Below are positions 326 through 24,171 of a stretch of 64,000 bases of DNA, one piece after another. This DNA is from Chloranthus sessilifolius (taxonomy: Eukaryota > Streptophyta > Magnoliopsida > Chloranthales > Chloranthaceae), in assembly GCA_021018995.1 (NCBI GenBank), contig CM037587.1, forward strand, positions 16,369,366 through 16,433,365, written 5' to 3'. Position numbers and translations under genes: made by a program. Positions within the stretch are counted from its first letter, which is position 1; each line of letters opens with the position of its first letter. The notes under the pieces were generated by a model, which was not told where the DNA came from, did not search any database, and was given only the letters and a program-made list of their open reading frames with translations.

Positions 326-1050
326 TGTGCAACCATGGGAATCGATGCGATCCCCGTCACGACGATGCACTCTCTAACGATGAAAAATATAGAGTCGCCA
401 CCCGGAGCTTTTGGTGTCCCGGGATACCTAGTTCATTTTCATGAGCACCGAAGTGCTAAAAATATGACTCTGAATCCGGTCCACACCAAAGGCTCTTGGG
501 TAGGGGCTTCGGTTATCGATTGGGAAGGTGTTAGGTACTCGATCAACCCGCTTAACGCGGTCTCTACTAATGGCTAACAATAAAATAGAGTAAAAGTAAG
601 AAAAATAGCTTCCTCTTGCCCAAAAAGGCTTAGAATCCTATTTGTGCCCCTCCGTTCCTATAAAAAAATCGGTGGTGTAACGGCACAAATGAGAGGATGG
701 AGGGAGCTAGAAAGAGATAGGAGAAGAAAGGGAAGAGCCGGAGCCCTCGGGCCCTTGTAGCACCGTAGAGGAGCCTTGCGTGGCTTGCTTTGATGAGCTC
801 TTGAAGGCTTTGTATGGTGGAAAATGGGGTTCTAACTCCTAGGACTTAAAGCTAAGAGGTGGGGGATGGAGACTAGGGGATCACACACCTAGGTTAAGGG
901 TTTTGGATGCAAGAACAAGCTTAAAATGAGGTTGGGAGGTTCTAAAATATGGGTGAAAATAGTGCACAAAAGGGAGGAAGAACTTCTCACTTTGAGCTCT
1001 TTCCCTCTTAAGCAAATTTTTCAACCCCTAAACCAAGGGGTGGGGGGCTC

Positions 1051-1058
1051 TATTTATA
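1051..1058 (-). promoter_or_regulatory. TATA box of the left LTR
   Basis: TATAAATA on the minus strand sits in a conserved block (CTATAAATAGAGCCCCC) shared by all three LTR copies in the window. In element orientation it lies downstream of the palindrome array, which places the array in U3. Confidence 0.7.
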
Positions 1059-1340
1059 GGAAAGGAGTGGATTAGGAGGCTACTTAGATGCTAATTGGAG
1101 TTAGCAATTAGGTAATCTCAAATCTAAGGTTTCCTAGGATTTCGAGAGCTTGGAAAGGTGTGAAGGTGGCTCTAATGGTGGATGATGGGGTGAGGCTTTA
1201 AGCCACTTGGAGGGTTGCAAATAGATAAGGAATGGGTGCAACAGAACTATCAAAACACACCCCAAAGGTTGAGGTGGTCAACAAGTTAAACCCCAAACAC
1301 AAATTTCGGGGCAAAAACTCATTGTTATTGTTCATATGTC

Positions 1341-1592
1341 TGGCGCAACTAATAGTTGCGCCAAGAAAATGTACAGTAAAATAGTGAGGAACAGTGCTGG
1401 AAGTTAGCTCGCGGGGTGGGGGCCACCATTTAAACTTGGCGCAACTATTAGTTGCGCCAGACTTAAAATTAGGGAGGATTGGCCTGGCGTAACTAATAGT
1501 TGCGCTAGGCAAAATTTATACCTGGTGCAACTATTAGTTGAGCCAGGCCATTTCTGGGGAGAAATAGCCTGGCGCGACTAATAGTTGCGCCA
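1341..1592. repeat. Palindrome array A, in the left LTR (5 units)
   Basis: Units start at 1341, 1437, 1485, 1523 and 1570. The consensus is an 11-base arm TGGCGCAACTA, one central A or T, then the complementary arm. Units 1 and 2 are perfect hairpins. The gap between units 1 and 2 is 73 bp, equal to two spacers plus one unit, suggesting a lost unit. Spacers are 25, 15 and 24 bp elsewhere. Confidence 0.9.
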
Positions 1593-1976
1593 AGTCCCTA
1601 GGGGGCCACCTTGAAATTACCTTCCTGCCCTCCGGGTTCGGATTGCCACATCTTCTGATATATACCTTCGATTGGGGCAATTCTTGGACGGTTGGAAAGC
1701 TGGCGACCTCTACTCTTCAATGGTATAAGAGTTGGTCGCTGTAGAGGGTCGTAACTAGTTTTGGTTGTACCCCTCCTCCTTATTGCCTGGGAAGGTTAGG
1801 TTAGGGTTAAAAAAAAAGGTTGTAAGGGTCGGGGTCGGTTTCTGAAGGTTCGGGGTAGGTTCCTGGGGGATCTAGGGTGATTCCTAAGGATTTTATATAC
1901 GCCATCAAAAGCTCAGAAATGTGCCTCTCACGAAATATGTTTCGATCAGGCCTTGGGCCAAATTTGGGTGTCTACA

Positions 1977-1990
1977 GATGCCCCTCTTTG
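1977..1990 (-). other. Polypurine tract next to the 3' LTR
   Basis: On the minus strand the bases just before the LTR read CAAAGAGGGGCATC. This purine-rich tract directly abuts the TGTAGACACC start of the LTR, the expected position for the plus-strand primer of reverse transcription. Confidence 0.7.
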
Positions 1991-3284
1991 ATATCCGATC
2001 AGTAATGATCGAATGCCAAAGAAAAGAGACAATTGAAGAGGCCCAAATCATTACTGACGGGTCCCCTGTATTCAGAACGAACTTCAAACATCGGATGAGT
2101 AACACGGTGAGAAAATGAAAGCCCTGGAGTGTCAGGCTAATCATTCGTTTCTCGAGGTAATCGGTTCCCAAGTGCTTAGCGACATTACTGGGCATAATCG
2201 AGGTGGAATGAGTTGCGAAAGCCTAATAGCTGGGAAAAACGTTCGCCTCTCGAGATGTTTTGAAGGTGATTGATATTCGAGATTCATTCTGAATGCAACA
2301 GCTTCGTAAGTAAGAGGGGTGATCGACCCACATTCAAAGATAGGCACGAAGCGAACATACGCAAGGCTCCATAGTTTGCATCCAATCCTACAAGGCATTT
2401 GACGACCTCATTGGATTATTTGCGGGTGCCTCTGCTGAAAGCAGGGTTTGAGATCTTTGGGCGAACCCATCGATCCCAAAGTTTATTTAGCATGACCACC
2501 TGAGCGAAGTGAATAGATGTCACAACGCTTTTTAGGGGTGCGCGCCATTTTTCAAAATGCGCCTTAGATCCACATGACCTAGAGCGTCCAGCTTCAAATA
2601 TCACTAAACAGATCCAACCAGTTATCGGGTGCTAACCCAAAATGGACATCCAACCCTAGTTTCTGCCGATAATGATCATAAGCATCAATTAACTATGCAG
2701 AAACATGTACCCATTAGGGGCAATAAGTAACAACAAAGGCGATGGAAGCTCCGATCCGAACCTGCCCGAGTATAATTTACGAGGATAAACGACCATCATA
2801 CAGATACCCAGACGCATGACGTACACTTTATAGGGATACCGCTGCCCATACAGGTTTTAAGCCTGCGGAAAATAAAAGGGAAATGAACCCTTCTGAATGC
2901 ATGATTGTAAATAGTTTGATTGACACATAATCTCATTCTCGACAGGTTAGTTTCAACCAACGATTGACCTTTTTTAACGGAGAATCTGAAGCTTAAGGCA
3001 CTTAAGTCCACATGAGTCCAAGCGCTTGTCGCAAAGATTTAGCAGTGGAGTTGACCTGATCGAAACATTGATTGTTTGACCGAGACCGACACCGTTGCTC
3101 CTGCCTTAAGGCAGGATCCAGAGATCTGAGGTGAACCTCTGACTCAGGACTTTGATGTGGCACAGTTGCATTGCTGATAAAATATTGACGTTTTACCACT
3201 TTATGCTTGTGCGCTGTGCGGGTTCAAATCTATTTTTGATTTTTCTATCATTTTCTGCAATTTTCTAAACTTTTCAACTGTTAT
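1991..3284. other. Non-coding spacer of the inner element
   Basis: No convincing coding region is seen on either strand. The segment lies between the 3' LTR and the tandem repeat at 3.3 kb and belongs to the long untranslated 3' region of the retroelement. Confidence 0.6.
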
Positions 3285-3575
3285 TTTATGGGATTTTTTT
3301 GAATTTTGAATCTATTATCTTATGTGAATTTTTTGGATTTTTGGAGTTATTATTTTATGTGAATTTTTTGAATTTTGGAGTTATTATTTTATGTGAATTT
3401 TTGGATTTTTGGAGTTATCATTTTATGTGAATTTTAAAGATTTTGGAGTTATTATTTTATGTGAATTTTTTGGATTTTGGAGTCATTATTTTATGTGAAT
3501 TTTTTGAATTTTGGAGTTATTATTTTATGTGAATTTTTTGAATTTTGGAGTTATTATTGGAATTTTATAATTTTT
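3285..3575. repeat. AT-rich tandem repeat, about 41-bp unit, six to seven copies
   Basis: Each unit reads roughly TTATTTTATGTGAATTTTTT followed by GAATTTTGGAGTTA, with small changes. It is internal to the retroelement spacer. Confidence 0.85.
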
Positions 3576-3839
3576 GGAGTTGTCTTGTGAATATTTCCGG
3601 CTTCTCTGTGGAGATTATATTATATTTTTTTATTTTCCTTATGTCTAGGACCGGGGTTCTCGTTGTCCTCGACCCGCCCTTATTTTAGCACGGCTTCCTT
3701 GGCAAATCGAAGGATGACCGAAAAGCCGCCTTGGGAGCGCGTGCATCGGTTGGAAGTGACCGAACAAACAAACAAAAGGAAGTGGGGGACCGGTCTTCCC
3801 ATCTGGCCCGTACTAGGCCTAAGACCCGACCTGAGTGCC

Positions 3840-3958
3840 TGGCGCAACTATCAGTTGTGCCAGGCCAATATGGGCTCAAGAACAGCTTGGCGCAACTATT
3901 TGTTGCGCCAAGCTAAAGGGAGGCAAACATTTACCTGGCGCAACTATTAGTTGCGCCT
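3840..3958. repeat. Palindrome array B (3 units, exact 48-bp pitch)
   Basis: Units start at 3840, 3888 and 3936. Both spacers are exactly 25 bp and differ from one another. The units differ from the consensus by one or two bases each. Confidence 0.9.
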
Positions 3959-4290
3959 GTTCATCGGGTATTTAAAATGCAGTCAACTCGGCAAAGGGGG
4001 TCTCATTTCGAATTCTTCCCCCTCTCTTCCTCTTTGAAATCGAAAACCGCTCCCCCTCCCCCTAGGGTTCCTTTACGTTGCCTTTAGCGTGCCCTTTGCC
4101 GTTGTTTTGCTTGCGGATCGATCACGGCCCTACGCTAGATAAAAAACCCCTTTTTCTTCATAAGATAATCTTTTAAACTCTTTTTTCTTGATTTTTCTTG
4201 CTTTTTGTTATGCAAATAGGATCATAATCTTGCATTTCTAGATGAAGAATAGTTTATTTTTGTTGTAGGCATATTGGTTGATGATGTGTG

Positions 4291-4360
4291 AATGATTTTT
4301 TTTTTTTTTTTTTTTATGAATAATGCCTTCTTCTTCTTTTCTTTTTTGATTTTATGCGTA

Positions 4361-4417
<57 letters not shown>

Positions 4418-4686
4418 AATAATAATTTTTTGTTTTTATTTGTGCCTAGAAAAGGGGTTTTATTTATGTTATTTTTTGTTTTTTTATCTCAAAGCGAGGA
4501 TTTTATACATCCTTTTTGACAAATAGTTTAGAAAAAGGGAATTTCTAATGATTTTTGGTTTCTATATATTGAAAACTAATTAAGGAGAAAGTGATTTTTT
4601 TTTTTTTTTATTTCTCTTAACATTAAAAAGGATTATGCTTTTTTTTTTTTGTTTTGTTGTTTTTTTTTGAAAATTATCTAAGGTAT

Positions 4687-4755
<69 letters not shown>

Positions 4756-5460
4756 ATATGTTTTGTTTTAGTTTTTTTTGTAAAAGAGGGATTTTTTTTT
4801 TGGTCACAAAAGGAGGATTGTTTTGGTGTTTTTTTTTTTTTTTTTTTTATATAGTATGTAAGAAGGATTCTTTTTTTCTTGATTTTATGGTCCATGAAGA
4901 ACATGATTCTTTTGTTGTTTTTTTTGTTTCCTGATTTTAGAGGCATAAGGAAAGGATTTTTTTTGTTTTTATGATTTTAGGAACGTAAAATGAAGGACTT
5001 TTTTTTAGTTTTTCTAAACAGAAAGAAAGATTTTTTTGTTTCTTATTTTTAGAGGCATAAAGAAAGGATTTTTTTGTTTTTTTCTAAATAGTAGGAAAGA
5101 CCTTTTTTGTTTTTATGATTTTAGAGGTATAAAGTGAAGGACTTCTTTTTTTTTTTAATTTTCTAAACAGAAAGAAAGATATTTTTTGTTTCCCTAGACA
5201 TAAAGGGAGGATTTCTTTTTCTAAGTATAAAAGAAGGGCCTTTTCTTTTTTTCTTTTTGGAGTGATAAATGAACGATTTTATTTGTTTCTAACTTGCTTT
5301 ATTTTAAAAGATAGGAAGAAAAATTTTTATTTATCATCTTTTTCTGAAGAAAAGATTTTTTTTTTTTGCATTTTCAGCCTAAAAAGGGATTTTTTGTTGT
5401 TTTTTTCTGGATGTGTATCTCTCATTTAAAAAAAAATATATATATATATATATGTGAAAA
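4291..5460. repeat. T-rich tract with two (AT)n microsatellites
   Basis: It contains a T run at 4293, (AT)25 at 4365-4414, (AT)32 at 4689-4752 and many T runs of 7-20. From about 4920 to 5400 a loose 45-60-bp motif recurs: GATTTTAGAGGCATAAAG, then AAGGATTTTTTTG. The Ile-Tyr and Phe-rich open frames here are translations of these simple repeats. Confidence 0.85.
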
Positions 5461-5562
5461 GAAAGGGGGAAGGTGAGCATACTTACCTCCCTTTTTGTAG
5501 CATAGGATATCATGCCTTTTTATCATTGATCTGTTCTGACGTGATTGCTTTGTTGCCCCAGC

Positions 5563-7983
5563 ATGTCGGGCGGTGATGAGCACGTTACCGAGGAGGGCCA
5601 CGAGGAGGGGCCCGAGATAGTGTACGGTCCGCGAGGAGAGCAGTTCCTTTGGGTGGAGCGGAGAGCGGGCCCATGGCTCGAGATGCAGGGTGAGGCTGCC
5701 CGGGTTGGCCTCCTCCATCAGCAGCACACTCATATCTCCAATTTCGGAATAGTGGGCAAGGTAAAAGATAGGTTCAGTTTCTTTCCTTTGCGCAATTTTT
5801 TTCTTTACCTCTGCTATCTGATGTGTATTTTTTTGGGGGTGTAGGAGCTGCCCAACATTGTGTTCCGCGGGGGGTGGCTCGACTTCCATGAGTTCTACCT
5901 TTATGTCCCCCCTATGGTGAAAGTTTTGTTGGAGCAGGTGGGCTTCGGGGAGTTCTTGTCCTGCCCTGCCATGAGGGCGGATGCCGCCTATCTGAAGGCC
6001 CTCATTGAGCGATTTCGTCTCGAGACCATGACGTTCCACATGCCGTATGCCGAGCTGACGCGGACGCCCGTTGATTGGGCCATGATTACAGGCATTAGGA
6101 TTGGCGGAGTCCCGATATCCACCTTGGCAGTACCGAGTTGGGAGGACATCATTCGGTTGATCGGGGCCTATCCTCCTCGTGGGCAGACCCATGGCACAGA
6201 GGTCAAGATGTCCTGGCTGACCTCCCTCTTTTCTGCTGATGAGTTGGTGGACCTGGGCCAGCCAGATCGGGTGCTTTACATCGCGCCAGAGCGGGTGATC
6301 GTTCTAGCCCGCATCACCCTCCTACTCCTGCTGGGCAAGACCCTTTTTACAAATGCCAGTGGGGGACGGGTCAGCCTGGCCCTATTGAGTGTGATGGATA
6401 ATTGGGGCGATGTTCCCAGGCATGATTGGGGAGGGGCAGGATACACCCGGCTGATGTACAACTTATCCCGGGTCACGACCGGGGCCTCGAAGTCTGCCGT
6501 GAGATTTTGGGCCGTTCTGGAGGTAATTCCTCACCCCTTCACTTTTGTTATTGCTATCATCTACTCATCATTTTTCTTTTCTGACTGATCTATTTATATT
6601 ACTGACCTGCTCTCGTGCCATGCCCCTTTTTCAGGTATGGGGATACCACCACTTTCACCTTGAGCGCTCCTTTTCACGGAGGTGCTCACCTATCCCCTCC
6701 TCAGTAACTAGCATCAGGCCCGACGCCATGACGTGGGCCTAAAGCACCTGGAAATGGGCCTAAGGTCCCAGCTTGATTTGATAGTGCCTGAGTTCAGCCT
6801 TTGTTCACTTTCAGCTTGGGCATTTCTTTTGATTGAGGTGTTGCTTACTTGGTCCCTCTTGCCTTTTGATTTTGAGCATATCCTCCCCGATCCGTACCTG
6901 ACATCCCCCTTCTGGGATCAAGCAGCCATGGGTGCCTCCCGCCTATTCAACAACCGCCACATCGTCTTCTTTTATGGAGCGTGGGCCAAATGCTACTATT
7001 TGGGGGAGAGGGTGGTGCATCAGTTCCAGGGCTACTATGCCATACCCGTGGACCCACCGGCTGACGTTTGGAGTCCTGCTAGCAGTATTGAGGAGTTGAC
7101 AGCGGCCTTTTTCAACAATGGGTTCCCCATTCGCGCTCTCCATGTGCCTGGGGATTATCATGCTTGGTACGAGTGCCTCCCCTCCTGGTTCATCTTGCCG
7201 CGTTTTGTCCCTAGCGCTAATTTCCTTGCGTTCGGGGGCCCACTTGGTCAGGTAACTTCTTCTCAGCTTGGATTAATTTCTCTTTCGCTTTTACTCGGCC
7301 TGAGTCTTAGCTAAATAGATCCTTGTCTGGTTCACAATTTGCTCCGGGAGATGGTTCGGATGATGAAGGTGGGCAGTCGCGACATGTCGTGGGTAGATCC
7401 CTCCGGTGTCTGGTCCTTACAGTGCAGTCCCTCGAGGGTTAGTGTCAGTCCGTCGGATACCTCTTAGGCGGGTGTCCCTGGTGGGGGTCCATTTGTAGCT
7501 TATGGGACCTTTCGGTGTCTTGACGATAACTTCCTCTCAAATCTCTGTGTCGACATGGACCGACAAGCACGGCTCTCTGCCGAGGCGGCCTGCATTGCTC
7601 CTCCTGAGGTGGTCCCTGGGGTGAGTTTTCAGATGAGCCGCTTCTCCTTTATTTTGGTTTCCTTCGGTACATGCTTTCAGGGGTGTTCTAACAATTGAAT
7701 ACTGTATCATAGGACTTCAACTTGGCTATGGAATATGCAGAGTACCATCGTCATCTGGCAGAGCTTCGGGAGGTGGAGACGGTGAGTTCCTGACTGCTCA
7801 ACTCCTCTCTTTTTTTTCATTATCATTGGCCCTTGACTGATTTTGTCCTTGACTGTGCCTTGCAGCGTGCCCGGGCTAAGGAGTCGTGTTCCCTGCTCAG
7901 TAGGATTTCACAAGCATGGTCTAGAGTGGGGGATATGAGGACCTATCAGAGCTCCTCTCACCGTCGCAAGAAGTCCAAGTGAG
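5563..7983 (+). pseudogene. Plant-mobile-domain (PMD) gene carried antisense in the inner retroelement
   Basis: A segment at about 5845-6522 reads as a PMD: residues like ERFRLETMTFHMPYAELTRT, then PVDWAMITGIRIGGVPIS, then a W..LF stretch and a VLARITLLLLLGK helix. This is the pattern of the PF10536 family found in plant MAIN/MAIL-type proteins and in transposable elements. Intron-like GT...AG gaps are visible at 5761-5844 and 6523-6634, and a further segment (about 6741-7250) with FNNRHIVFFYGAWAKCYYLG continues the domain. A short basic, serine-rich segment ending in a stop at 7981-7983 follows. The gene lies on the strand opposite gag-pol, so the GT/AG signals would not be spliced from the retroelement genomic RNA. 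Whether it is functional is unclear; it is treated here as part of the fossil. Confidence 0.65.
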
Positions 7984-8442
7984 CGAGCAAGGAATAGGCT
8001 ATTAGTTTCCTTCAACATTTTTGCTTTTTAAAACTCAGTATTTCAGATTCAGCATTATGGGATGGATGATACATTATTTTTTTGGACATGTTTCTTTTGA
8101 AAATATTCATTGTTTTAATGCCTTTCTTTTGAGTTTAGGCCAAGGTTTCCTTGCCTTCTATATTTGTTTCTTCGCAAGATGTGTCTGCCCATTGCCTCCC
8201 TTTTTGAAAAAAAGCGATCTTTATGGGTTGCATGCCTCAATGTAGGATCAATCCTCAAGTAAGTCTGAGACGGCTGTAGAGGGGGGCCTTTTGGGTCGCA
8301 TGCCTCAATGTAGGATCAATCCTGCACATAACAAAATAATTCACAAGCCGTTGATGGTCGGAAGTGCTGACATATATAAAATCAACAAAAAGGGCAGAAG
8401 TCCCTCTTGATCCTCGAGATGGTCGGAAGGGGATTTTAGTCT

Positions 8443-8563
8443 TCATAACTATTAGTTGCGCCAAAGCTAAAGTGCCAGCCAAATTGGGGTTCAATGCATT
8501 GGCTAACTATTAGTTGCGCCAGCCAAAATAGGACAAGAATGTGTCAAGAACTATTAGTTGCGC
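8443..8563. repeat. Palindrome array C (3 degraded units)
   Basis: Half or imperfect units lie near 8443, 8500 and 8545. All keep the CTATTAGTTGCGC half while the left arm has decayed. It sits between the two captured PMD-like genes. Confidence 0.75.
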
Positions 8564-8726
8564 AGTTTGGCTTATGATGGGGCCTTATATGCCCAAATTG
8601 ACCGAGAAATTGTTTCTTTTTGTTTGACTTGGCTCCTTTGACCGACATTTTTAGCTCTTGTTTCTCCAAGGCGGGTCCATCTTCCTACATTGATTCTTAT
8701 CTTCCCAAAATATCCTTGTATGTTCA

Positions 8727-9811
8727 TGGATCCGCCTCCTAACCCTCCCTTATGTGGAGGGTCTAGAGCCAATGTATCCTCTTTGTCGGGCTTGGGGCCC
8801 AAGTTCCTGGCAGCTTGGTTTGGGAGTCTGAACGAGAGTGAGCTCGCCGACTTGGGGCGCCTTGGGCTATCTCGCCTTCCTTCCTTCTTTGAGATTCCTC
8901 TTCGGTGGGAGCTCCTTTATGCCACCGCTTCGTGCTGGGATGTGAACCTCCATGTATTCCGTTTTGGGAAGCGGGAGCTGACCCCAACCCTTGAGGAGCT
9001 ATCCAATCTGTCTGGCCTGAAGCTTCATAGGGACCTTGCAAGAGTTATGCCTAAGCCCGGGTATTGCAGATCCGTTTACCTTACTCTCAGTTTGAAGAAA
9101 TCCGAGTATGAGAAAAGCCTCATCGGGGGGCCCACAAGGTGTTCGTTGAAATTCCTCAAAGAACTTTTCGGTGATGAGAGCCTCCGAAGATTGCCGATTA
9201 GGAGTGTCTTTAACGTGAAAGCTCTAGCACTTGGTCTCATCTCTGAAATCCTCTTCTACATCGGGGGAGAGAGGTTCTCATTGGTAGCTTGTGATATTTT
9301 GATGAAATTGGAGGCGGACCGGTCCATGATGCATTTGGTGCTTGCCGAGCTGTACCGATGCCTTGATTCTTTTGCCTTGGGCAAAGTGGAGGGCCTTCGG
9401 GGATGCCCCTTATTGCTCCAGGTCTGACTGGGTGAGCATTTTGCCGTTTTGGGGCCCGTGCCTTCCTTCTATGTTGCTCGAGGCGAAGTGGCCCACTATT
9501 TTTTGGGTAGATGCCACTTACTCCCCCAAGGTGATACGTCGGCTCTAAAACTTTGGTTGGTCGATGCTGAGCTGACATGGAGGCTTCCTTGGTTGGATCG
9601 GACCTTCCCAGTGATTCGTTCTAGAGACCATGAGGGTATCACCCTCCTAGGATTGACCGACAGCACCTTCTACTTCCCATTCCGGGTGTTGCGTCAGTTT
9701 GGCTGCCCCCAGCAGGTTCCTTGTAAGGCCAGACCCCCTTTATGTGATTTGATCTTTTCTAGGGGATCCTCTGGAGACATAGACCGGATTGCTGCTCATT
9801 GGGAGCCTTGA
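8727..9811 (+). pseudogene. Second captured gene, DUF7745/PMD-like domain, antisense to gag-pol
   Basis: The reading contains FFEIPLRWELLYATASCWD, then NLHVFRFGKRELTPTLEEL, then FNVKALALGLISEILFYIGG, and about 200 residues on RSRDHEGITLLGLTDSTFYF followed by PFRVLRQFGCP. The W-D...F.FG..ELTPTLEEL pattern is typical of the plant DUF7745-type domain, a relative of the PMD that is common in plant transposons. The copy is broken, with about one or two interruptions. It is not a duplicate of the 5.6-8.0-kb gene, because the two share only fold-level features. Confidence 0.55.
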
Positions 9812-9884
9812 CGACCACGATGTGTGATTTTGGCGGGGAGACTCGATTAGAACTTCTCGAGTATAAGGCCTAGTTGTTGAGTCG

Positions 9885-10213
9885 ATGGCCATGATGGCCC
9901 GAATTTGTCAGAGAGCATTGAGACTGGAGGCCCCTGGCCAAAGAAAGAAGCGGCGCTCCGAACCCGTATCGAGCTATTGGTGGATGAGAAGAGGGTCCTG
10001 CAAGAACTCTTGGCATGCTAGAGGGTTAGAGCAGACACAGCGGAGAGCAAGGTTCTCCGTTGGAAAGAATCACTGGGCGTTGCTTTTGGAGCCGCCGACT
10101 CTTCTCGGAAGAGGTTCAAAAGCCTGCATGGCCGTTGGCTGACTGAGAGGAATGTCTGAGAGGATGATCTTCATGCTGAGATTAGCGCTTTGAAGCGCGA
10201 GTTGGGCCGTTGA
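9885..10213 (+). pseudogene. Coiled-coil-like tail of the second captured gene
   Basis: One frame is rich in Lys, Glu, Arg and Leu with heptad-like spacing (for example KKEAALRTRIELLVDEKR) and ends at 10213. C-terminal coiled coils are frequent in plant transposon PMD proteins. It is interrupted, and its assignment to the 8.7-kb gene rests on position only. Confidence 0.4.
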
Positions 10214-10307
10214 CTCCTTCCTGCACACAGAACTTTTTGCACAGATCATATACACAGAAAAAAGGGGCGTAGAAAACCCCTTTACAGATACACACACATT
10301 TTTGGTA

Positions 10308-10350
<43 letters not shown>

Positions 10351-10849
10351 CATTATTTTATTTTTATTTTTTTGTTTTTTTCTATACTTGTAAAAAAGAA
10401 AACACGCTAGTCATCACACCGGCTATTTTTGAGATGTGGTGCAAGTGATACAAAAGGCAGTTATATACATCTATACAGAGCTATTTTTTTTTGTTTATGT
10501 ATTATCTCCTCTTTTTTTCCCTTTTTGTGCCTTAATAATTGGGTGATACGTTGGAAAACCTTGGGTCCACCTTTGAGCATGGTCGACCTCCCCTTTTTGA
10601 GTCAGACCTGGATGGGTTTCTGGATTTTGCCAAGGCCGGAATATTGGTCCCTTTAGATTGAGTTAAATCTTTCTCCTGGCCTCGGGTCATACGTTTGACG
10701 GTGCGGGTTTCACAAAGACAATTCTGGTTGAGGCCTGATTTGAATTAGCATGAGCGGCCCCCAAAAACAAGGGGGCAGGGGTAGTAACCAAGGGGGCTCA
10801 ATAATTTTTATCAGTCCAAACCTTTCCTTTTTCTATATATATATATATT
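10214..10849. repeat. Low-complexity spacer with (AT)n and T run
   Basis: (AT)n lies near 10311-10335 and is followed by a T-rich stretch to about 10385. No coding region is recognised before 10850. Confidence 0.6.
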
Positions 10850-11000
10850 TTACCCGTGGTGCCCTTTCGAGTTTTCACCATGTCCATGAGTTTAGCTCTC
10901 TTACCCCAAGCGCCCTTTCGGGTTTTCACCTGGTCCGCACAAACTCGCTGTTTTTACCCATGGCACCCTTTCGGATTTTCACCACGTTCATCTTGCTTTG
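10850..11000. repeat. Tandem repeat, about 51-54-bp unit, three copies
   Basis: The motif ACCC.TGG.GCCCTTTCG.. followed by TTTTCACC recurs at about 10853, 10904 and 10957. It lies between the antisense genes and the end of integrase. No gene is seen from 11000 to 11430. Confidence 0.75.
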
Positions 11001-11433
11001 AGCTTATATTTTTATTTTATTACATTTTTTTATTCTTTTTATTTTCAAGAGCCACAACATAGACGTCGATTCCGTCATAGCTGGCTGGATGGGGTTCTGG
11101 TGTCGTCTCACGACTTGGCTCATGTTGACTTAACAGATATTATGACTACTTGCGAACCTACAAAGAGGGCTTCCTTCAGGGTGTAGCTTGGACATGGGTT
11201 AGGTTAGGATTTGAAGGTATGCTAGGCTAAAAGGGTTTCCTTGATACAGCTTCAGTTTTCTCAACGTACTTTCTTCCTTAGGGGTTTTTATTATACATGC
11301 CCCGTGATTCTTCTATACACATTTTTTGTTATTCTTTTTCCTCCATTTTAGGCAATCTCTTTTTGAGGTTTTGCTTTTTCGATTTTATTGTACATGCCCC
11401 GTGTTTCATCAATACTTACCTTATCGCGATAGA

Positions 11434-14400: not shown

Positions 14401-14730
14401 ACGATATTGGCTAGCCACTGCAGGTATTTGAATACCATGAGAAACCCCGCGTCATACTGCTTGATGACCTCATCTTTGACTTTCAGCATCCATTCGGGTC
14501 AGAGATGTCTCAGCTTCTGCTTGACTGGCTTTATATCAAGGTAGAGGGGCAACTCATGCTCGACCAAATCGATATTCAGACCAGGCATATCCTCGTACGA
14601 CCAGGCAAAAATGTCTTGGTATGACCGAAGGAAGTCGATCATGCTTTTTCTTTCCTCAGGAGACAGCGACGTTCCGATTTTAGTTATCATGGGAACCTCC
14701 TCAGTTCCTAGATTGACATCTTTGGTCACT
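11434..14730 (-). mobile_element. pol region of the inner element: RT, RNase H, archaeal-type RNase H, integrase (fossil)
   Basis: Domains in reading order (right to left): RT about 14730-13900, with VPKKDGKVHMCIDFRNLNRA, the DGFSGYNQI block and the YVDDM catalytic loop. RNase H about 13650-13270, with YLSKKFTDYKTCYSHLEKAC and KGQALADHLADN. A second, archaeal-type RNase H about 13175-12780, with WVMHFDGAANVEGQGVGAIL, NNMVEYEACVAGLQAAL and LRVFGDSQLI. Integrase zinc domain about 12600-12360 (H..H..CYKC) and catalytic core about 12300-11750, with WRLDVVGMI, a DNG block and a GAVEAANK glutamate. The second RNase H is diagnostic of the Tat lineage. The region is broken in several places. Confidence 0.93.
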
Positions 14731-15174
14731 TCGACAATGGGGGTAGGGCCATACTCAAAGTCGGCAAATTGGTCAAGGAGCTCATTGGAGAGCTCCTTGA
14801 AGGGGACATTCTCATTCAGACTCGTGATCCCTACCTCTTCTTGTATTTCTATAGGGAAGGGGTTGATTTCACGTGGGACGGGTATTTTGATTAAGGCATC
14901 CTTTTGTAGGATATTTTCAGGAATTTTAAATGATAATATTTTTGAACTTTGGATTTTTTCAATGTTTTTGGGATTTTATATTTTTTCCATATTTTTGAGT
15001 TTTTATATTTTTTTATGTTTTTGAGATTTTTGTTTTCTTCGGAGACGAACCCTTGGCAAGGCGGGTTTGTGTATATACAAGGTATTGTCTGCCAAGGGCT
15101 TATCCCACTTTTTATAGGTTTTTTTTTTTTGGGAAACGGGCGCCAAACTTTAGGCCACTTCCTACTTTCAGGGT
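14731..15174. other. Protease-RT linker, AT-rich part
   Basis: The minus-strand sequence between RT and protease is an AT-rich stretch repeating GATTTTTT..TTT-type words near 14930-15040. The equivalent stretch of the outer element lies at 25080-25340. No conserved domain is seen. Confidence 0.5.
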
Positions 15175-17218
15175 CTAGGGTAAAGATGCCCAGTTGTGTA
15201 CCTGAGAGGTCGCTGCTTTACCTGATTGGATGGAGGGTGCTGACTGATATGGCTCATTGGAGTCAGCCTCCATCATATTGATCTCCATTTCGTCTGAGAT
15301 AATATCCTCAAACGCTAACACGGCTTTGTGGTGATTCACCACAGGTGGGGTTTGTTCAGGTACTGACCGTCGTTCTTCGAAAAGGGACAACGCGGCCAAA
15401 TCCATCTCCAAGCTGGGAAGGGAGATCTGGAGATTGGTGGGATGGACTGGGGCTTTGGGTTTGTGTGGGGTCAAATGGGTTGCCCCATTTCGATCGATCT
15501 TTATGACCCCTACGCTGACAAAGGAATCCCTGATGTGTGGCCTAGGGCGAGGTTTCTCTCTTATGTTGATTCCTCGAGCTCTTGCAGTCGCGGCGACCCT
15601 AGCTTTCTCTTTGGCCTCTCGGACCTCTTGCTCCGTGGGCTTATATCCTAGCCCGAATCTTACTTTTTGTCCCTTAGCCATAACTGACTCTCTTCTGCCT
15701 TGTAATTTGGGTCCCAGACCCCTCCCTTTCTGATAGCCCCACTTTTAGAGCATTGCCACTGCTGCTTCCATACCGCCTCCTGTTTTAGACATGATGCCCT
15801 CCATGGGTTCTGGGAGTATAGCTGACACCTCATACTCAAAATTGTGGAGGTCGACGTCCTAAGCGGTGTGTGGTACATCCAGCATATTGGGTTTTTCAAC
15901 GCTATTGGCGGCCTTTTCTTTCTCACTGTGCCCCTCTCCAATGATGGTGATAATCTTATGCCCAGATGCAAATTTGAGTTTCTGGTGCAATGTGGAAGGT
16001 ATGGCTCCGACTTCATGTAGCCACGAGCGCCCTAACAACAGATTAAATGAGGATTTGATATCCATGACTTGAAACAAGATGGAAAAGGTCATTGGCCCTA
16101 TCAATATCTCAAGATCAACTTCTCCCAATATTTCTCTCCTAGTATTGTCAAACCCTCTAGCGCTGGTTCTGGTGGGTCTTAACATGCACGGATCAACCCC
16201 AATTTTGGTGGCGGTTCTTAACGGGCATATATTCAATGTAGACCCATTATCAATTAGTACCAAGGGGATAACCATATTTTCGGACTCAACAGTTATATCT
16301 AAAGATTTTGAGTGACTACCTCCTTCCTCAGATAAATCGACATCAGAAAATGAAATGACATTTGGAGCCATCACTTGACCAATTATCTGCCCGACTTCAT
16401 CTGGGCTAACTTGGAGTGATACATGCGCATTTTTTAACGCCCCTATTAATGCTTGGAAATAGAGTGGGGACGTCATCAACAGATCCCATACAGTGATATG
16501 GGCAGGCATTCTTCTCAGCTGAGTCTCCAGTATATGTTCTCGACTCATCTTCTCAAACGGATTCACAATGCTCTCTTTCTTTCCTTCGGATTGGGTCTGT
16601 GCTGCTGCTGGTGCTTTGGGCTGCTTCGATATTCTCCTTGACCTGGTAACAAAATCTACTGCCCCTTCTCTACTACTGCTTCCCGCATTGATATCTGTTT
16701 GTTCGTAGCTTAGCAGGACCTGATGAGGATCATATGTGGGTTTCGAGAGCTGGAAGGGTATGGCTGCCGGTTCTTGAGGTACTTGTACTGTCGTCTCAGG
16801 AGGTGTGGGCAATACTTGATTCACCCCGGTGGCAGTGGGTTGGGTGGAAAGATTGGGCCAAATGGGGGTGGTGGAGCTTGAGGGTGGTGGCATTGGAGGG
16901 AAGGAGGTAAAAGTAGGCGATGTATGGGGGTCTGATGGGCCGTTAGGTAATTGACCGGGGTGGTGGAACTTGCCGGTGGTTGAGCTGGGGGTGATGGAGT
17001 GGGCGCATGCCATTGATAACTGATGGGTGCGGGTGTTGGATTGGGGGCTTGGTGGCTTATTGGGTAATTGATGGGGGTTGTGGTGTATGGTGGTAGTTGG
17101 AATGGGGTGGGCGTAGGCCATTGATGACTGGCGGGTGCGGGTGTAGGATTGGAGGTCTGTTGGCTCATTGGGTAATTGATGGGATTGTGGTGTATGGTTG
17201 GTATGCATTGATATTCAC
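15175..17218 (-). mobile_element. Protease region with proline-rich linker, inner element (fossil)
   Basis: The aspartic protease block is at about 16370-15860, with SENMVIPLVLIDNGSTLNIC, GVDPC, and LLLGRSWLHEVGAIPSTLHQ. The IDNG active site in place of D-S/T-G is normal for Tat elements. Upstream in reading direction (17200-16800) is a Pro/His/Thr/Ser-rich linker. Downstream (15680-15175) is a basic stretch with KVRFGLGYKPTEQEVREAKE, shared with the outer copy. It is broken. Confidence 0.88.
16925..17205 (-). repeat. Repeats encoding the proline-rich linker
   Basis: The linker repeats a module of about 35-40 residues (HQLPN.P..xQS.TRT.Q.SMA.AH), two good copies and one partial. This looks like in-frame expansion of the Gag-Pol linker. 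Confidence 0.6.
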
Positions 17219-18294
17219 CTAATTGACGGGGGTGGGCGATGGAAAGTATGCCTTGAGATCCAAGGGTTCAATTTGTGGAGTCGGATTGGAGAAATAATCT
17301 GACAAATTTAGGGGTTCAACTACCCCTATATTTCTTTCTTCAACGCTTCTTAACAGCGGTGCTACATAACTCTCCCGATCACTGATGTAATCGGATGGGT
17401 CGAATTCAAATTCCTCCTCATCTTCTATCATTTCGATAGTGGGTCTGGGACCTGCTCCTCCGATAGGATGTGGGGATAGTGGTACTTGATGAATATTAGC
17501 ATGCTGAGAAGGTCCGGGGGGAATGATTTTCCCGGCATCAATCAAATCTTGGATAGCGTGTTTCAATGGGAATCAGCGATCAGTAGGGTGACCCAGACCC
17601 TGATGAAAATTACAGTGGGTATTTGAGTCATAGTTCTTTGGGATCGGGTGAGGAGGAGGTTGCGGTTGGCGGATAGCCACTAGTCCCTTTTCTACTAACA
17701 AGGGTAAAAGTACACTTAATGATTGCCCAAGAGGTGTGAAGACTCGGTCGTAGCGGGCTCCTCTGTTTCGGAGTCATTTTCATTCCTTGCCCGTTTCCTA
17801 TTCTTTGCATCTGCTCAGGCCTAACAGGTGCTGGTGGGGCCGCCTAAAATTGAAACGGAGCAGTATTATTATTGGGCCTGATGTTGGCTATGTTCTGGAC
17901 ATCGCCCCCTTTTCTCTTCTCGTTCCTCTGCTCAGAAAATCTTCTGACCCCGCTAGGGCCCCCTGAAGTATTCTTACTTAGCCGCTCTTCCCTGATGGCA
18001 TCCTCTCAACGATTGGCATTCCTCACAAAATCAACAAAACTAGACTGCTGTTGGTATACAAGAAAATCAGAGATCACCGGCAGAGTGTTCTTTGAAATCA
18101 TCTCTATCTGCTCATCATCCGGTATTCTATTTCTGACCTGAGCTGCCAATGCTCTCCATCGCCCTAAGTAGTCACTGAAGGCCTCATTTAGATTCTGCTT
18201 CAACCGGGCCAAATCAGACTTGCGCGGTTCAATATCAGTATTATAGACATACTGTTCCTGAAATAAATGCGCTAAATCTTTCCATGTCTTCATC

Positions 18295-20225
18295 ATGGAT
18301 GGTTCAAGAGATGTGAACCACCTCAGGGCCGGTCCTGTCAAACACTTCTGAAAGACTTTTATTAGCAGTCTTTCGTCCCCTCCGTACTGGCACATGTCCC
18401 CACAATAGGACTTGAGGTGTGCGATCGGGTTGCCTGTGCCATTGTACTTGTCGAATACTGGCATTTTAAACGTGGGGGGCAAGGGGACCTCAGCGAACAG
18501 GCATAGGTCTGTGAAGTCCGTGGCATGAATTTCAGCGCCACCCATTTTCATCAGCTATTTTTATATTTTGTCTAACTGTTCTTTCAGTTGCTCTGACTCT
18601 TTCGATATAGGGGCCGCTTTCTCGGCCGTCAGTCGGACTTCACTCTGGGCTACCAGGGGGTGGGCAATTACTGGTGGAGGGTTGAGGCTGGTCAATGCCC
18701 CAGCATAGGCCCCGCTATTCCTAATCTCGTCCTCTTCATACTGTTGGTCGGCGTAATGTGCAGTGAAGACAGGATTCTTAACCTGTTGCTGCATGGGTTG
18801 GATGGGAATGACATGAGTAAGGGTTGGATGAGCCCATTGGGGGTGAGGAAAGGTTTGTTGGGTGATGGGAATTTGGTGTTGAGGCAGGGCCTGGTAGGGC
18901 CATTGGGTATGGGGGAAGGTTTGGAGATGGCCTTGGGGTGTAGGGCCATGGGAGAATTGGGTTTGGGGGATGATATGGGTTTGACCCAGCTGTGAAGGTT
19001 GGGTTAAGTGTTGGGGGTGTTGTAGAAGGTATGAGTGTGGGGTTTGGGTTTGGGCCATGAACCCTTGATCATTTTGGGTCATGGGCCACTGATAGGTCTG
19101 GGCCATGGACCCTTGGTAGGTTTGGGCCAAGGGCCCTTGATGGGTCTGGGCCACGGGCCCTTGGTGGGTTTGGCCCCATGGGCCTTGATGGGTATGGGCC
19201 ATGGGCCCTTGGAGGGTTTGGGCCATGGATGGTTCAAGAGATGCGAACCACCTCAGGGCCGGTCCGGTCAAACTCTTCTGAAAGACTTTTATTAGCAGTC
19301 TTTCGTCCCCTCCGTACTGGCACATGTCCCCACAATAGGATTTGAGGTGTGCGATCGGGTTGCCTGTGCCATTGTACTTGTCGAATACTGGCATTTTAAA
19401 CTTGAGGGGCAAGGGGACCTCAACGAACAGGCATAGGTCTGTGAAGTCCGTGGCATGAATTTCAGCGCCACCCATTTTCATCAGCTATTTTTATATTTTG
19501 TCTAACTGTTCTTTCAGTTGCTCTGACTCTTTCGATATAGGGGCCACTTTCTTGGCCGTCAGTCGGACTTCGCTCTGGGCTACCAGGGGGTGGCCAATTA
19601 TTGGTGGAGGGTTGAGGCTGGTCAATGCCCTAACATAGGCCCCGCTATTCCTAATCTCGTCCTCTTCATACTGTTGGTCGGCGTAATGTGCAGTGAAGAC
19701 AAGATTCTTAACCTGTTGCTGCATGGGTTGGATGGGAATGGCATGAGTAGGGGTTGGATGAGCCCATTGGGGGTGAGGAAAGGTTTGTTGGGTGATGGGA
19801 ATTTGGTGTTGAGGCGGGGCCTGGTAGGGCCACTGGGTATGGGGGAAGGTTTAGAGATGGCCTTGGGGTGTGGGCCCATGGGAGAATTGGGTTTGGGGGA
19901 TGATATGGGTTTGACTCAGCTGTGAAGGTTGGGTTAAGTGTTGGGGGTGTTGTGGAAGGTATGAGTGTGGGGTTTGGGTTTGGGCCATGAACCCTTGATC
20001 ATTTTGAGTCATGGGCCACTGATAGGTCTGGGCCATGGACCCTTGGTAGGTTTGGGCCAAGGGCCCTTGATGGGTCTGGGCCATGGGCCCTTGGTGGGTA
20101 TGGCCCAATGGGCCTTGATGGGTCTGGGCCATAGGCCCTTGATGGGTCTGGCCCGTGGACCCTTGATGGGTCTGGCCCCATGGGCCTTGATGGGTATGGG
20201 CCATGGGCCCTTGGAGGGTCTAGGC
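18295..20225 (-). repeat. Tandem duplication inside gag, 930-bp offset
   Basis: 18295-19224 and 19225-20225 align at an offset of 930 bp at the gag-domain end (for example 18541 and 19471), growing to about 1006 bp at the other end because the second copy has extra 24-bp repeat units. The copies differ by only a few percent, so the duplication is fairly recent. Confidence 0.9.
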
Positions 20226-20420
20226 CATGGGCCATTTGTGGATCTAGCCCGATGGGCCTTGTTGGGTATGGCCCGTGGGTCCTTGATGGGTCTGGCCCGA
20301 TGGGCCTTATTGGGTCTGGGCTGTGGGCCCTTGTTGGGTTTGGCCATGGGCCATTGGTGGACTTGGGCCGTGGGCCCCTGATGGGTTTGGATTTGATGGG
20401 TTTCGCTCAATGGGCCCTGA
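19035..20420 (-). repeat. 24-bp minisatellite encoding an octapeptide in Gag
   Basis: On the minus strand the 24-bp unit encodes the octapeptide MAQTHQGP with variants (GQTHQGPW, AQTYQGSM). About eight units lie in the first duplicate and roughly twelve or more in the second, trailing into degenerate units to 20420. Confidence 0.88.
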
Positions 20421-21332
20421 GGGATATGGGTAATGGGGTTTTGGGCCAATGGGCCTTGGAGATGATGGGTAGTGGGGTATTGGGCCATTGGGCCCTGGAG
20501 ATCATGGATGGAGGGGTATTGGGCCATGGGGCCCTGAGATGTGTGAAAAGGGGGTTTGGGCCAATGGGCCTTGGGGTACGTGGGTGATGGGGGTTTGGAT
20601 GGTGTGGATTATGGGAGGTTGATGGGGGCCATGGGGGAGTGAAGCATGGAGGTTTGCTAAGGTGTGGGATGGATTCATGGATGTGGGGTGTGGAGGAGAG
20701 ATATTTTGGGAAGCCCTCCATGAGGAGTATGCTTGGAACATCTCCTCCATCATGGCCATGGAAGGGGGGTGGGATGTGGATGGTGGATTTAAGGGGTGAG
20801 GGGGTATAGATGGGGTGGAGGTGGTGGAAAAATTGGGCATGGTCCCAGTATAATTGGGCATGGCCACGGTAGGTGGGGGTATATGGGGTGGATGAGGGGA
20901 TGTATTAGATATGTTTTGGGATGATGGAGGGCATGATAATGAGGGATGAGGAAAGTTGGGCATAGCCCCGGTAAAAATGGGCATGGCCCGGATGGATGGG
21001 GGATTTTGCGGGGGATCTAATAGGGCGGAAGTAGTGTATGTGAACGTAGGTAGATCGGGTCTATAGGGGAATGATGGGAATTGGGGCATGGATATGGATT
21101 GGGAAAATGGGTTTGGCATGGGCATGGTTTGGGCAAAGGATGGGGAATGGGGGGTTGAACTTTGGATATTTTGAGGGGTAGTGGTTGGGAATATGGGGGC
21201 GCCGAATGGGTCGATAACTGTAAAAGGGGGTTGGGTGAGGGGGATGGTGGAAAAGACTTCTCCCGAATGAGAGTGCGTTGGAGAATGTGGCGGGGATGAA
21301 TCGGGATCGGCGTAACTGGGTCCACTACCCAC

Positions 21333-22630
21333 GACATTCTTCGGGAGCGGGTCGGGTAAGGGTGCCTTGGATAAGGCCCAAAAATCCTCCTCCTTCTCCT
21401 ACGGGACGACGGAGGGCAAGATGATGCCGTTGTGCCGGCACCACAAACTAAATATTTTTTGTGTTTTGATTATATTTTTTTTTTGAATTTTATGAAAACT
21501 TTTTGAAAAGCAAAGGTTCCGAGGCCTTGGAATTCCCTTTTCGGGTGGCTCTCGTACCTTAATTCAAGACCCGCGGCGACGGTTCCGATGCACTTTGAAA
21601 GAATTGAAGGAGAACCTTCGATCTATTGAAGACATAAAAATTGAGGCAAACGACTCGAACCCCCGAAATGAGCCAAAAAGAAGTTGCCTTCTCTTGACCG
21701 ATGGGGGCGTATTGGGTGTCGGAGATGGCGGGGCCTAAACAAGGCACTATGCACACTGATCGGGGAACTCGGGAGGTGGAAAGGGCCAAAGATTCGGGTT
21801 GGGTGCTGCCAAACAGACCTGGCGCAACTAATACTTGCGCCCAGGTTGCAGGGGAGGATTTTTACACTGGTGCAACTATTAGTTGCGCCAAGGTAAAAGT
21901 TGGGAGTTTAAAGCTGGCGCAACTATTAGTTGCACCAGTTATAAAATCTAGTGTTTTTACACTTGCGCAACTAATACATGCGCCAGGCAAAAACTGCCTC
22001 TCGATTCTCTCCTCACCTCACCTAAAGGATTGAGTCCGGTATAACTCGCTAACGCGCTCCCCAAGGGTTTTAAGCTTCAGAATGGGAACTCACCTGATAT
22101 ACCTCCGACACAAGCACCTTCTCAGATACTAGGTGGGCTGGGACTTTTCTGGATCATCACCACTAGGGGCTGCCGCCATACTAAGACCTGGGTGTTTGTA
22201 TGTGGGCCTAAACCAACCCTTTTGAAGAATCTACCCGCAAAATAAATTAATTAAGCTCCCTAACTTGGTTCAATTTTAATTTTTTTCAAAGCTTTTCTCT
22301 TTTTTTTGGAAGTTTTCTTTAATTCAAAGACCGGGGATGATTATCCCGTGCCGCCACACGGTCCACTGTTAGGATATGAATAATAAAAAAAGAAGGGGCC
22401 AGTCAAGCGACTAGGTAGAAAATATAAAGTGCTGAAATTTAAAAGGTGTCAGTCAAGTGACTAGGCAAAAATTGCTGAAATTTAAAGCGAAATCGTAGGG
22501 GTGAGTAAAATGACGTAATCGGAGGGGTGAGTACAAAAAAATAGCAAAAATAAAATAGAAAACAACAATAAAATGTTAGAAAAATAAAAATAAAAAAAGG
22601 GCCTAGTTCAAGGGGAAGCTTTACTAGCTA
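21333..22630 (-). other. Leader region of the inner element
   Basis: This lies between the primer-binding site and gag in reading direction. It holds palindrome array D and AT-rich sequence, with no recognised coding domain. Confidence 0.6.
21820..21985. repeat. Palindrome array D (4 units, 47-48-bp pitch)
   Basis: Units start at 21820, 21868, 21915 and 21963. Spacers are 24-25 bp and differ. The two inner units keep the CTATTAG centre, while the outer two have a changed centre. Confidence 0.9.
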
Positions 22631-22650
22631 GTCCCCAGCATAGTCGCCAT
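22631..22650 (-). other. Primer-binding site of the inner element
   Basis: Just inside the right LTR the minus strand reads ATGGCGACTATGCTGGGGAC. A TGGCGACTC..CTGGGGA-type site, complementary to the 3' end of a tRNA(Arg), is typical of Ogre/Tat elements as I recall it. The site fixes the reading direction of the element. Confidence 0.7.
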
Positions 22651-23377
22651 CTGTGCAACCGTGGGAATCGATGTTATCCCCGTCGCGACGATGCGCTCTC
22701 TAACGATGAAAAATATAGAATTGCCACCCGAAGCTTTCGGTGTTCCGGGATACCTAGTTCATTTTTATGAGCACCGAAGTGCTAAAAATATGACTCTGAA
22801 TCCGGTCCACACCAAAGGCTCTTGGGTAGGGGCTTCGGTTATCGATCGGGAAGGTGTTAGGCACCCGATCAACTCGCTTAACGCGGTGTTTACTAATGGC
22901 CAACAATAAAATGAAGTAAAAGTAAGAAAAATAGCTTTCTCTTGCCCAAAATGGCTTAGAATCCTATTTGTGTCATTCGGTTCCTACCGAAAAATCGGCG
23001 GCGTAACGGCACAAATGAGAGGATGGAGGGAGCTAGAAAGAGATAGGAGAAAAAAGGGGAGAGCCGAAGCCCTCGGGCCCTTGTAGCACCGTAGAGGAGC
23101 CTTGCGTGGCTTGCTTTGATGAGCTCTTGAAGGCTTTATATGGTGGAAAATGAGGTTCTAACTCCTTAGACTTAAAGCTAAGAGGTGGGGGATGGAGGCT
23201 AGGGGATCACACACCTAGGCTAAGGGTTTTGGATGCAAGAACAAGCTTGAAATGAGGTTGAGAGGTTATGAAATTTGGGTGAAAATAGTGCACAAAAGGG
23301 AGGAAGAACTTCTCACTTTGAGCTCTTTCTCTCTTAAGCAAATTTCTCAACCCCTAAACCAAGGGGTGGGGGGCTCT

Positions 23378-23385
23378 ATTTATAG
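23378..23385 (-). promoter_or_regulatory. TATA box of the 5' LTR
   Basis: TATAAATA on the minus strand, at the same place as in the left LTR. In element orientation the palindromes at 23763-23657 lie about 270-380 bp upstream of it. Confidence 0.7.
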
Positions 23386-23656
23386 GAAAGGAGTAGATTA
23401 GGAGGCTATTTAGATGCTAATTGGAGTTAGCAATTAGGTAATCTCAAATCTAAGGTTTCCTAAGATTTTGAGAGCTTGAAAAGGAGTGAAGGTGGTTCTA
23501 ATAGTGGATGATGGGGTGATGCTTTAAGCCACTTGGAGGGTTACAAATAGGTAAGGAATGGGTACAACAAAGCTATCAAAACACACCCCAAAGGTTGAGG
23601 TGGTCAACAAGTCAAACCCCAAACACGAATTTCGGGGCAAAAACCCATTATTGGCC

Positions 23657-23763
23657 TGGAGCAACTAATAGTTGCGCCAGGCAAAATTTATACCTAGTGC
23701 AACTATTAGTTGCGCCAGGCCATTTCTGGGGAGAAATAGCTGGCGCGACTAATAGTCGCGCCA
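23657..23763. repeat. Palindrome array E, in the 5' LTR (3 units)
   Basis: Units start at 23657, 23695 and 23741, with spacers of 15 and 23 bp. The 23741 unit is a perfect hairpin in which both arms carry a matching change (GCGCGACTA and TAGTCGCGC). Confidence 0.88.
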
Positions 23764-24166
23764 AATCCCTAGGGGGCCACCTCAAAATTACCTTCCTGTC
23801 CTCCGGGTTCGGATTGCCACATCTTCTGATATATACCTCCGATTGGGGTGATTCTTGGACCGTTGGAAAGCTGACGACCTCTACTCTTCAATGGTATAAG
23901 AGTTGGTCGCTGTAGAGGGTCGTAGTTAGTTTTGGTGTACCTCTCCTCCTTATTGCATGGGAAGGTTAGGTTAGGGTTAAAAAAAAAGGTTCTAAGGGTC
24001 GGGGTCGGTTTCTAAAGGTTTGGGATAGGTTCCTGGGGGATCTAGGGTGATTCCTAAGGGTTTAAGGTGATTCCTAAGGATTCCATATACGCCATCAAAA
24101 GCTCGAAAATGCGCCTCTCACGAAATATGTTTCGATCAGGCCTTGGGCCAAATTTGGGTGTCTACA

Positions 24167-24171
24167 GATAT
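24167..24171. repeat. Target-site duplication, right copy (GATAT)
   Basis: Matches 321-325. The outer element's protease reading resumes here as DIKSLFNLLLGRPWLYEVGA. Confidence 0.9.

Follow-up and report, generated by a model that had tools for sequence, protein, structure and literature searches.

A repeated 23-bp palindrome in an abundant Ty3/gypsy family of Chloranthus sessilifolius, a predicted site for a symmetric regulatory protein

What keeps a 23-bp palindrome constant in arrays whose intervening DNA has drifted is the question raised by a 64,000-nucleotide stretch of the Chloranthus sessilifolius genome (C4:16369366-16433365; here called the window). The palindrome, TGGCGCAACTA-W-TAGTTGCGCCA, is repeated in a Ty3/gypsy retrotransposon that lies inside an older relative (the inner and outer elements, respectively). 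Arrays of it occupy the long terminal repeats (LTRs) and the 5′ leader of the inner element and also lie upstream of its two antisense genes. One of the antisense genes encodes a plant mobile domain (PMD). From the comparison of copies and the placement of the arrays, we propose that each palindrome is probably a repeated operator or enhancer site for a symmetric, likely dimeric, regulatory DNA-binding protein.

Sequence, spacing, and abundance of the palindrome

Scanning the window at up to 3 mismatches returned 18 matches, of which the inner element holds 15 and the outer element three, compared with a mean of 0 and a maximum of 0 in 100 shuffles of the window. Relaxing the scan to up to 7 mismatches added two one-sided remnants only, at 8441 (5 mismatches) and 8499 (4 mismatches), for an inner total of 17. 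A first-pass annotation of this DNA had counted at least 18 inner units and three outer ones; the outer count stands, and the inner count is corrected to these figures. It had also proposed searching more widely for the 23-mer at 3 mismatches. Across the window's own 2.17-Gb genome (the one plant genome searched, 32 contigs), the palindrome occurred at 58,168 places at this threshold and was exact at 8,901, whereas a control pattern, the palindrome read backwards, gave 0 matches. We fetched 20 loci on contig C1 around listed exact units, a selection thus made by the motif itself. All 20 match the window's element in the LTR or the interior and so belong to one Ty3/gypsy family; L064, which is part of the window itself, was left out of the analyses. 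The palindrome-bearing family is very abundant in this genome. The exact motif had 0 matches in collections of viral contigs and genome contigs, and a search of paper texts for the half-sites and the whole unit matched 22 papers, of which the 20 listed contain a half-site only and are seemingly unrelated by title.

In the window and the 20 loci, 201 of 213 half-sites (at most 1 mismatch) sit within a palindrome of at most 7 mismatches. The center base is A or T in 121 of 122 units. Genome-wide, exact units have a G/C center at 66 places versus an A/T center at 8,901; a T-to-G/C change at an arm position occurs at 40 places per position (80 for two positions), and a T-to-A change at approximately 62 per position (123 for two).

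Neighboring units are regularly spaced. Among 82 spacings of at most 130 bp in the window and the 20 loci, 51 were 47 to 48 bp and 2 were 46 bp; the remainder comprised 11 of 37 to 38 bp, a pitch confined to the LTR arrays, 1 of 58 bp, and 17 of 81 to 130 bp (12 of these 96 to 101 bp). The two pitches, 37 to 38 and 47 to 48 bp, would be one helical turn apart. Array length varies through losses between units, and the window element's own two LTRs differ in this way. Spacers differ between neighbors, yet same-place spacers in other copies are recognizably related. The 47- to 48-bp pitch and the difference between adjacent spacers were both noted in the first-pass annotation, and its term for the arrays, an old 48-bp tandem repeat, describes them fairly. 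We do not claim that the spacers are themselves palindromes: their complementarity was 0.40 versus 0.28 in shuffled sequence, and shuffling destroys the AT-GC-AT layout of the spacers. Also set aside was the idea of breakpoints at palindrome centers, where 9 of 13 truncated units break at positions 10 to 14, a small number of cases obtained under a limiting detection rule.

Divergence of units between copies and after insertion

At two internal sites, units were two to three times less different than spacers between diverged copies. In the leader array (array D, 21820..21985; 8 copies), the pairwise difference was 0.143 for units, 0.291 for spacers, and 0.373 outside; at array B (site B, 3840..3958; 6 copies), the corresponding values were 0.075, 0.238, and 0.300. 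In the LTR, the difference of the last unit went from 0.106 to 0.135 while that of the LTR went from 0.083 to 0.254, and with exact units dropped it was 0.138 versus 0.255 for the LTR. LTRs lacking an anchored first or last unit were lost from this comparison, in which one LTR per element was kept, from five elements. Units also persist at matching places in copies whose LTRs are approximately 25% different. The constraint on units suggested in the first-pass annotation is supported at both internal sites and for the last LTR unit.

These differences have to be set against the way in which the loci were obtained. The arrays could be a passive tandem repeat from the founder of the family, their conservation an artifact of motif-based locus choice. 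Consistent with this, the 20 loci were selected for holding an exact unit, and some of the site B and leader units compared are exact selection units too. With exact units dropped, the first LTR unit lost its advantage (0.176 to 0.195 versus 0.167 to 0.257 for the LTR); its conservation is not clear because many of its exact copies decided the choice of loci. In addition, a sliding scan of LTRs (12 of 27) ranked the last unit approximately 155th of 1459 scan positions, with other LTR stretches more conserved. All of these points speak against the regulatory site proposed here. However, the last LTR unit keeps its advantage without exact units, the differences at site B and in the leader are two- to threefold, and units stay in place where LTRs have diverged by about a quarter, and we consider an artifact quite unlikely. 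Several features of the LTR are under constraint, and what distinguishes the palindrome unit among them is its approximately 15 to 20 repeats per element.

After insertion, units and surroundings follow a different course. Across 12 LTR pairs, each taken as one element, differences amounted to 107/1034 in units (10.3%) versus 733/11679 outside (6.3%). Partners were assigned by distance, strand, and similarity, with the target duplication checked for the window element only, and many of the compared pairs are not independent. Pairs L110/L111 (ambiguous unit alignment, 12.7% outside) and L112/L113 (no LTR in L112) were dropped, and pair L015/L016, 47 kb apart, was kept on the assumption of nested insertions. 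In seven pairs, decay by CG, CHG, and CHH context was alike in units and surroundings, and CG transitions numbered 17/110 in units versus 142/707 outside (P = 0.30). Protection of units from methylation decay was rejected on this basis, no significant context difference being present in the seven pairs. Symmetric double changes were near chance (16 seen versus 12.9 expected), which together with the decay in LTR pairs leads us to reject gene conversion as the cause of conservation. Of the causes offered in the first-pass annotation, preferential gene conversion is not supported; protein binding is retained, favored over RNA structure by position (see below).

Units decay after insertion but stay constant between diverged copies, a pattern that points to selection on replicating elements, not self-repair, as the explanation of their conservation. 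The equal divergence of units and spacers that the first-pass annotation had named as evidence against constraint appears after insertion and not between diverged copies. Comparing LTR pairs (decay) with diverged copies (constancy) offers a simple separation of selection on active elements from mutational bias.

The center base flips between A and T at roughly ten times the rate of the LTR's other A/T bases. Across 41 close LTRs, flips were present in 13 of 202 units, and at site B in 9 of 63; in the leader array, 1 of 72 centers differs. In 22 full LTRs, mean A/T diversity was 0.138 at centers versus 0.013 at other A/T columns (permutation P = 0.0016), and a slice alignment of the 41 LTRs gave 0.118 at centers, compared with 0.029 for the remaining A/T columns and 0.008 for arm positions. 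Within single elements, 3 of 47 centers differed versus 32 A-T exchanges among 6287 sites elsewhere; two of the three flips came from one pair, L040/L041, and adding the two dropped LTR pairs gave 6 of 53.

The first LTR unit (1570-1592 and 23741-23763) helps to explain how centers turn over. In the window's subfamily, it carries a compensated arm change in 20 of 22 close LTRs, namely A7G paired with T17C as read in the sense direction; the 3′ LTR of the window's own element carries just one of these letters. Three flipped copies of this unit keep at least one letter of the compensated change, and two keep both. Because flipped first units retain an arm change specific to that unit, we infer that turnover by inversion of the palindrome is more likely than copying from a neighbor. 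Template switching at inverted repeats is described as inverting spacers (PMC8604942); the predicted spacer inversion matches the center base here, whereas the predicted homogenization of arms was not detected.

Two further explanations draw on these flips. In the first, the palindrome has no function, and template switching or gene conversion, acting between arms or units, maintains its symmetry. The flips in LTRs, at site B, and within elements, the known template-switch product (PMC8604942), and the losses between units all agree with this account. It is largely refuted by the faster decay of units than of their surroundings after insertion, and it is further opposed by the like decay of units and surroundings in each cytosine context (seven pairs), by the near-chance frequency of symmetric doubles, and by the single deviating center among the 72 in the leader. 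Conversion between arms, moreover, would not preserve identical letters across diverged copies. We regard self-repair as highly unlikely. In the second, the palindromes are recognition sites for a recombinase or the integration machinery, as symmetric arms around a one-base center, center flips, and losses between units might suggest. A Pfam scan of nine element frames turned up no recombinase domain, however, and homologous arrays inspected by eye showed no inverted spacer. The element also encodes an integrase zinc-binding domain and is flanked by a 5-bp target duplication. We consider recognition of this kind extremely improbable.

Placement of the arrays and the predicted binding protein

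Array A (1341..1592), in the presumed U3 of the 3′ LTR (326..1976, minus strand; 1.65 kb), has five units, at 1341, 1437, 1485, 1523, and 1570. The TATA box of this LTR (1051..1058, minus strand, in TCCTATAAATAGAG) follows the last unit by approximately 281 bp when the LTR is read in the sense direction; in LTR sense coordinates of the window copy, units occupy 388-639 and TATA lies at approximately 922. Array E (23657..23763), in the presumed U3 of the 5′ LTR (22652..24166, minus strand), retains three units, the array being partly missing compared with the 3′ LTR, and the TATA box (23377..23384, minus strand) is 271 bp beyond the last unit. In a survey of 42 LTRs, 4 had no TATA match and 38 had both features; the distance from last unit to TATA was 279 to 283 bp in 31 of the 38. 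Pairwise identities in the sampled LTR set are approximately 70 to 95%.

Elsewhere in the inner element, array D in the 5′ leader has four units at a pitch of 47 to 48 bp. Array B has three units, 1.6 to 1.9 kb upstream of the first frames of the antisense gene aPMD1 (5545..7698, plus strand), and the two decayed one-sided units (8441..8521) lie directly upstream of the second antisense gene, aORF2 (8642..9811, plus strand), at a place where two other copies, L022 (5012-5177) and L023 (9461-9626), hold four units each. The CpG observed/expected ratio was 0.80 in array A and 0.54 across the remainder of that LTR; among 7 other LTRs, it was higher in the array in 4, approximately equal in 1, and lower in 2. 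As a separate observation, one-arm off-consensus letters of the CAAGTATTAG or CATGTATTAG type are common to the two outermost units of the leader array (21820-21985 in the window; L005, L009, L016, L018, and L020) in most of the 8 aligned copies.

We favor an operator or enhancer site because the palindrome is symmetric, repeated, near-fixed in its distance before TATA, situated before each antisense gene, and constant only during replication. Many bound dimers together would switch on, or keep open, the retrotransposon promoters. Protein binding, activation (or protection from silencing), and cooperation of the arrays are the predicted steps, and the factor could be a host transcription factor, as suggested for Sireviruses, or the element's own antisense PMD protein. 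Several observations fit such a site less well. The distance to TATA deviates in 7 of the 38 LTRs (271, 271, 272, 275, 309, and 367 bp, and one mis-called), array B lies as far as 1.6 to 1.9 kb from aPMD1, the leader array is downstream of the promoter and is a poorer fit to an enhancer, and the site could act equally well in RNA.

An RNA function would involve a 9-bp hairpin with a UAWUA loop, present in the leader, the 3′ region, and U3, and acting in packaging, dimerization, or export. All arrays would lie within the presumed genomic RNA, and the compensated A7G/T17C change in the first LTR unit, found in 20 of 22 close LTRs, is compatible with a stem, although it suits a DNA dyad equally. 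Against a hairpin, the loop letters TA-W-TA equal the stem in symmetry and conservation (122 units), and a hairpin needs neither. The near-fixed distance of LTR units from TATA and the presence of arrays on the 5′ side of antisense genes likewise argue against RNA, which we judge unlikely.

In its bolder version, the operator reading identifies the palindromes as targets of the element's own antisense PMD proteins, which would regulate the sense promoter and their own genes as an activator or anti-silencing factor. We hold this version as tentative and somewhat doubtful; its basis is the arrangement and the selection on both parts. The antisense genes look selected. For the PMD-encoding frame of aPMD1 (5845-6588; Pfam PMD, E = 8e-16), ratios of nonsynonymous to synonymous divergence (dN/dS) were 0.09, 0.10, 0.22, and 0.32 against L022, L019, L014, and L023, respectively. 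The aORF2 frames gave 0.30 and 0.17 against L022, the one distant copy available, and gag gave 0.04 to 0.06 against four copies. For L023, a close copy, dN/dS rose above 1 in three comparisons, each based on few changes, which counts against this selection. If PMD proteins do read the palindrome, they would gain a defined DNA site, and the family would be a retrotransposon counterpart of the VANC system discussed below. Because the antisense genes look selected and PMD function is called unknown in the literature (PMC9289625), the motif would make PMD function testable, and the 23-bp sequence, an exact probe present tens of thousands of times in the genome, would provide a means of finding the protein.

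The first-pass annotation knew of no description of such a pattern, but a close published parallel exists in the RM boxes of Sireviruses, which are Ty1/copia elements. As described in PMC2829016, RM boxes are palindromic, number 8 to 32 copies per element, mostly start 200 to 400 bp into the LTR, and lie upstream of a conserved TATA, with extra clusters before the 3′ envelope-like gene where present; the motifs are 10 to 20 bp long, all but one with a CGG-CCG core, they do not diverge while their flanks do, and CpG islands are reported. The present family likewise has a repeated LTR palindrome ahead of a conserved TATA and further clusters before an accessory gene (array B and the units at 8441 and 8499), although the genes here are antisense and PMD type, not envelope-like. 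Unlike the Sirevirus motifs so described, the palindrome belongs to a Ty3/gypsy element, is 23 bp long, lacks a CGG-CCG core, recurs at a 37- or 47- to 48-bp pitch, and forms arrays in the 5′ leader as well. As far as that account goes, the layout is already known, and the palindrome is a variant of it that follows the same plan in a different superfamily and with a different sequence. Two unrelated plant LTR superfamilies appear to share a promoter design, with palindromes in the LTR before TATA and again before an accessory gene, and this points to a common regulatory logic. Among the best matches in the open-access literature, neither this motif nor such arrays were found for Ty3/gypsy elements; a description elsewhere is possible.

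VANDALs are DNA transposons. The VANC proteins, anti-silencing proteins of Arabidopsis VANDAL elements (PMC5735166; PMC10398659), are the nearest tested case of a transposon protein reading a repeated motif (PMC5735166). As in the present family, a short motif is tandemly repeated in noncoding regions and the same family encodes accessory proteins (PMC5735166, PMC10398659). In the passages of those reports on VANC21, however, the motif (YAGTATTAY) has a single orientation and targets diverge rapidly, whereas here the palindrome is conserved and the binding protein is only predicted. Retand elements are also similar, being Ty3/gypsy elements with a long region between pol and the 3′ LTR and antisense genes, with tandem repeats there in approximately half of those surveyed (PMC11963269). 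They differ, as portrayed in that source, in their antisense TRP28 genes, LTRs of 315 to 1,194 bp, and family-specific repeats, whereas here the genes are PMD type, the LTR measures 1.65 kb, and a single palindrome recurs in all arrays.

The retrotransposon, its antisense genes, and neighboring features

The inner element (326..24166, minus strand), recognized by its TG...CA ends, junctions, and Pfam domains, is bounded by the target duplication GATAT (5 bp; 321-325 and 24167-24171). Inverted-repeat continuity of the interrupted outer element places it inside an older relative of opposite orientation. The gag-pol region (11434..21398, minus strand; gag at 18006-18554) has broken frames. Pfam identified a gag domain and, at 12126-13973 (minus strand), RT_RNaseH and RVT_3 in tandem followed by an integrase zinc-binding domain, these three in one frame. 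Ty3 elements encode RNase H before integrase, and Ty1/copia elements encode integrase before reverse transcriptase (RT). In the window element, both RNase H domains are encoded ahead of the integrase zinc-binding domain, so it is not Ty1/copia. Its dual RNase H, one RT-linked and one second domain by Pfam, is a Tat-clade feature (PMC9289625).

Both antisense genes are placed between pol and the 3′ LTR. aPMD1 comprises frames 5545-5844, 5845-6588, 6712-7314, and 7468-7698, which are probably exons, and aORF2 comprises frames 8642-9427 and 9428-9811. By Pfam, frame 5845-6588 matched PMD and frame 6712-7314 matched nothing; frame 8642-9427 matched PMD/DUF7745 (E up to 0.01), and aORF2 is weakly PMD/DUF7745-like, its E value of 1.2e-5 being under the curated cutoff. 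TRP28 (PF04195) was absent by Pfam from these three frames, with shorter antisense frames outside the scan. Structure prediction of the PMD fragment without an alignment was not usable (pLDDT 37). An extra PMD is a likeness to the PMD-carrying plant Gypsy elements of PMC9289625, which reports that no other atypical domain is as frequent as PMD in plant Gypsy elements and whose main text has no word starting with "palindrom." The motif known as "DOWN" from Arabidopsis PMD mutants (CATGCAGTTT, PMC9899485), considered as a related site in the form given there, was dissimilar by eye and was rejected.

The outer element's LTR array (27274..27430) has three units. A deletion with its endpoint at a unit has fused the outer element's RNase H/pol region directly to the first palindrome of this LTR, at approximately 27264-27274. 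In the inner element, an AT-rich 34-bp tandem array of 8 copies (3281-3558) is situated between the 3′ LTR and array B. The gag region of the window copy contains a direct duplication inside gag (18294-18593 and 19224-19523; 98% identical, 930 bp apart) and 24-bp tandem repeats of the GGTTTGGGCCATGGGCCCTTGATA type (19045-19229 and 19975-20390), which on the sense strand encode a peptide repeat rich in Q, G, P, and A. Further along the window, 54863-55897 (minus strand) holds a reverse transcriptase remnant (Pfam RVT_1) that is LINE-like by eye.

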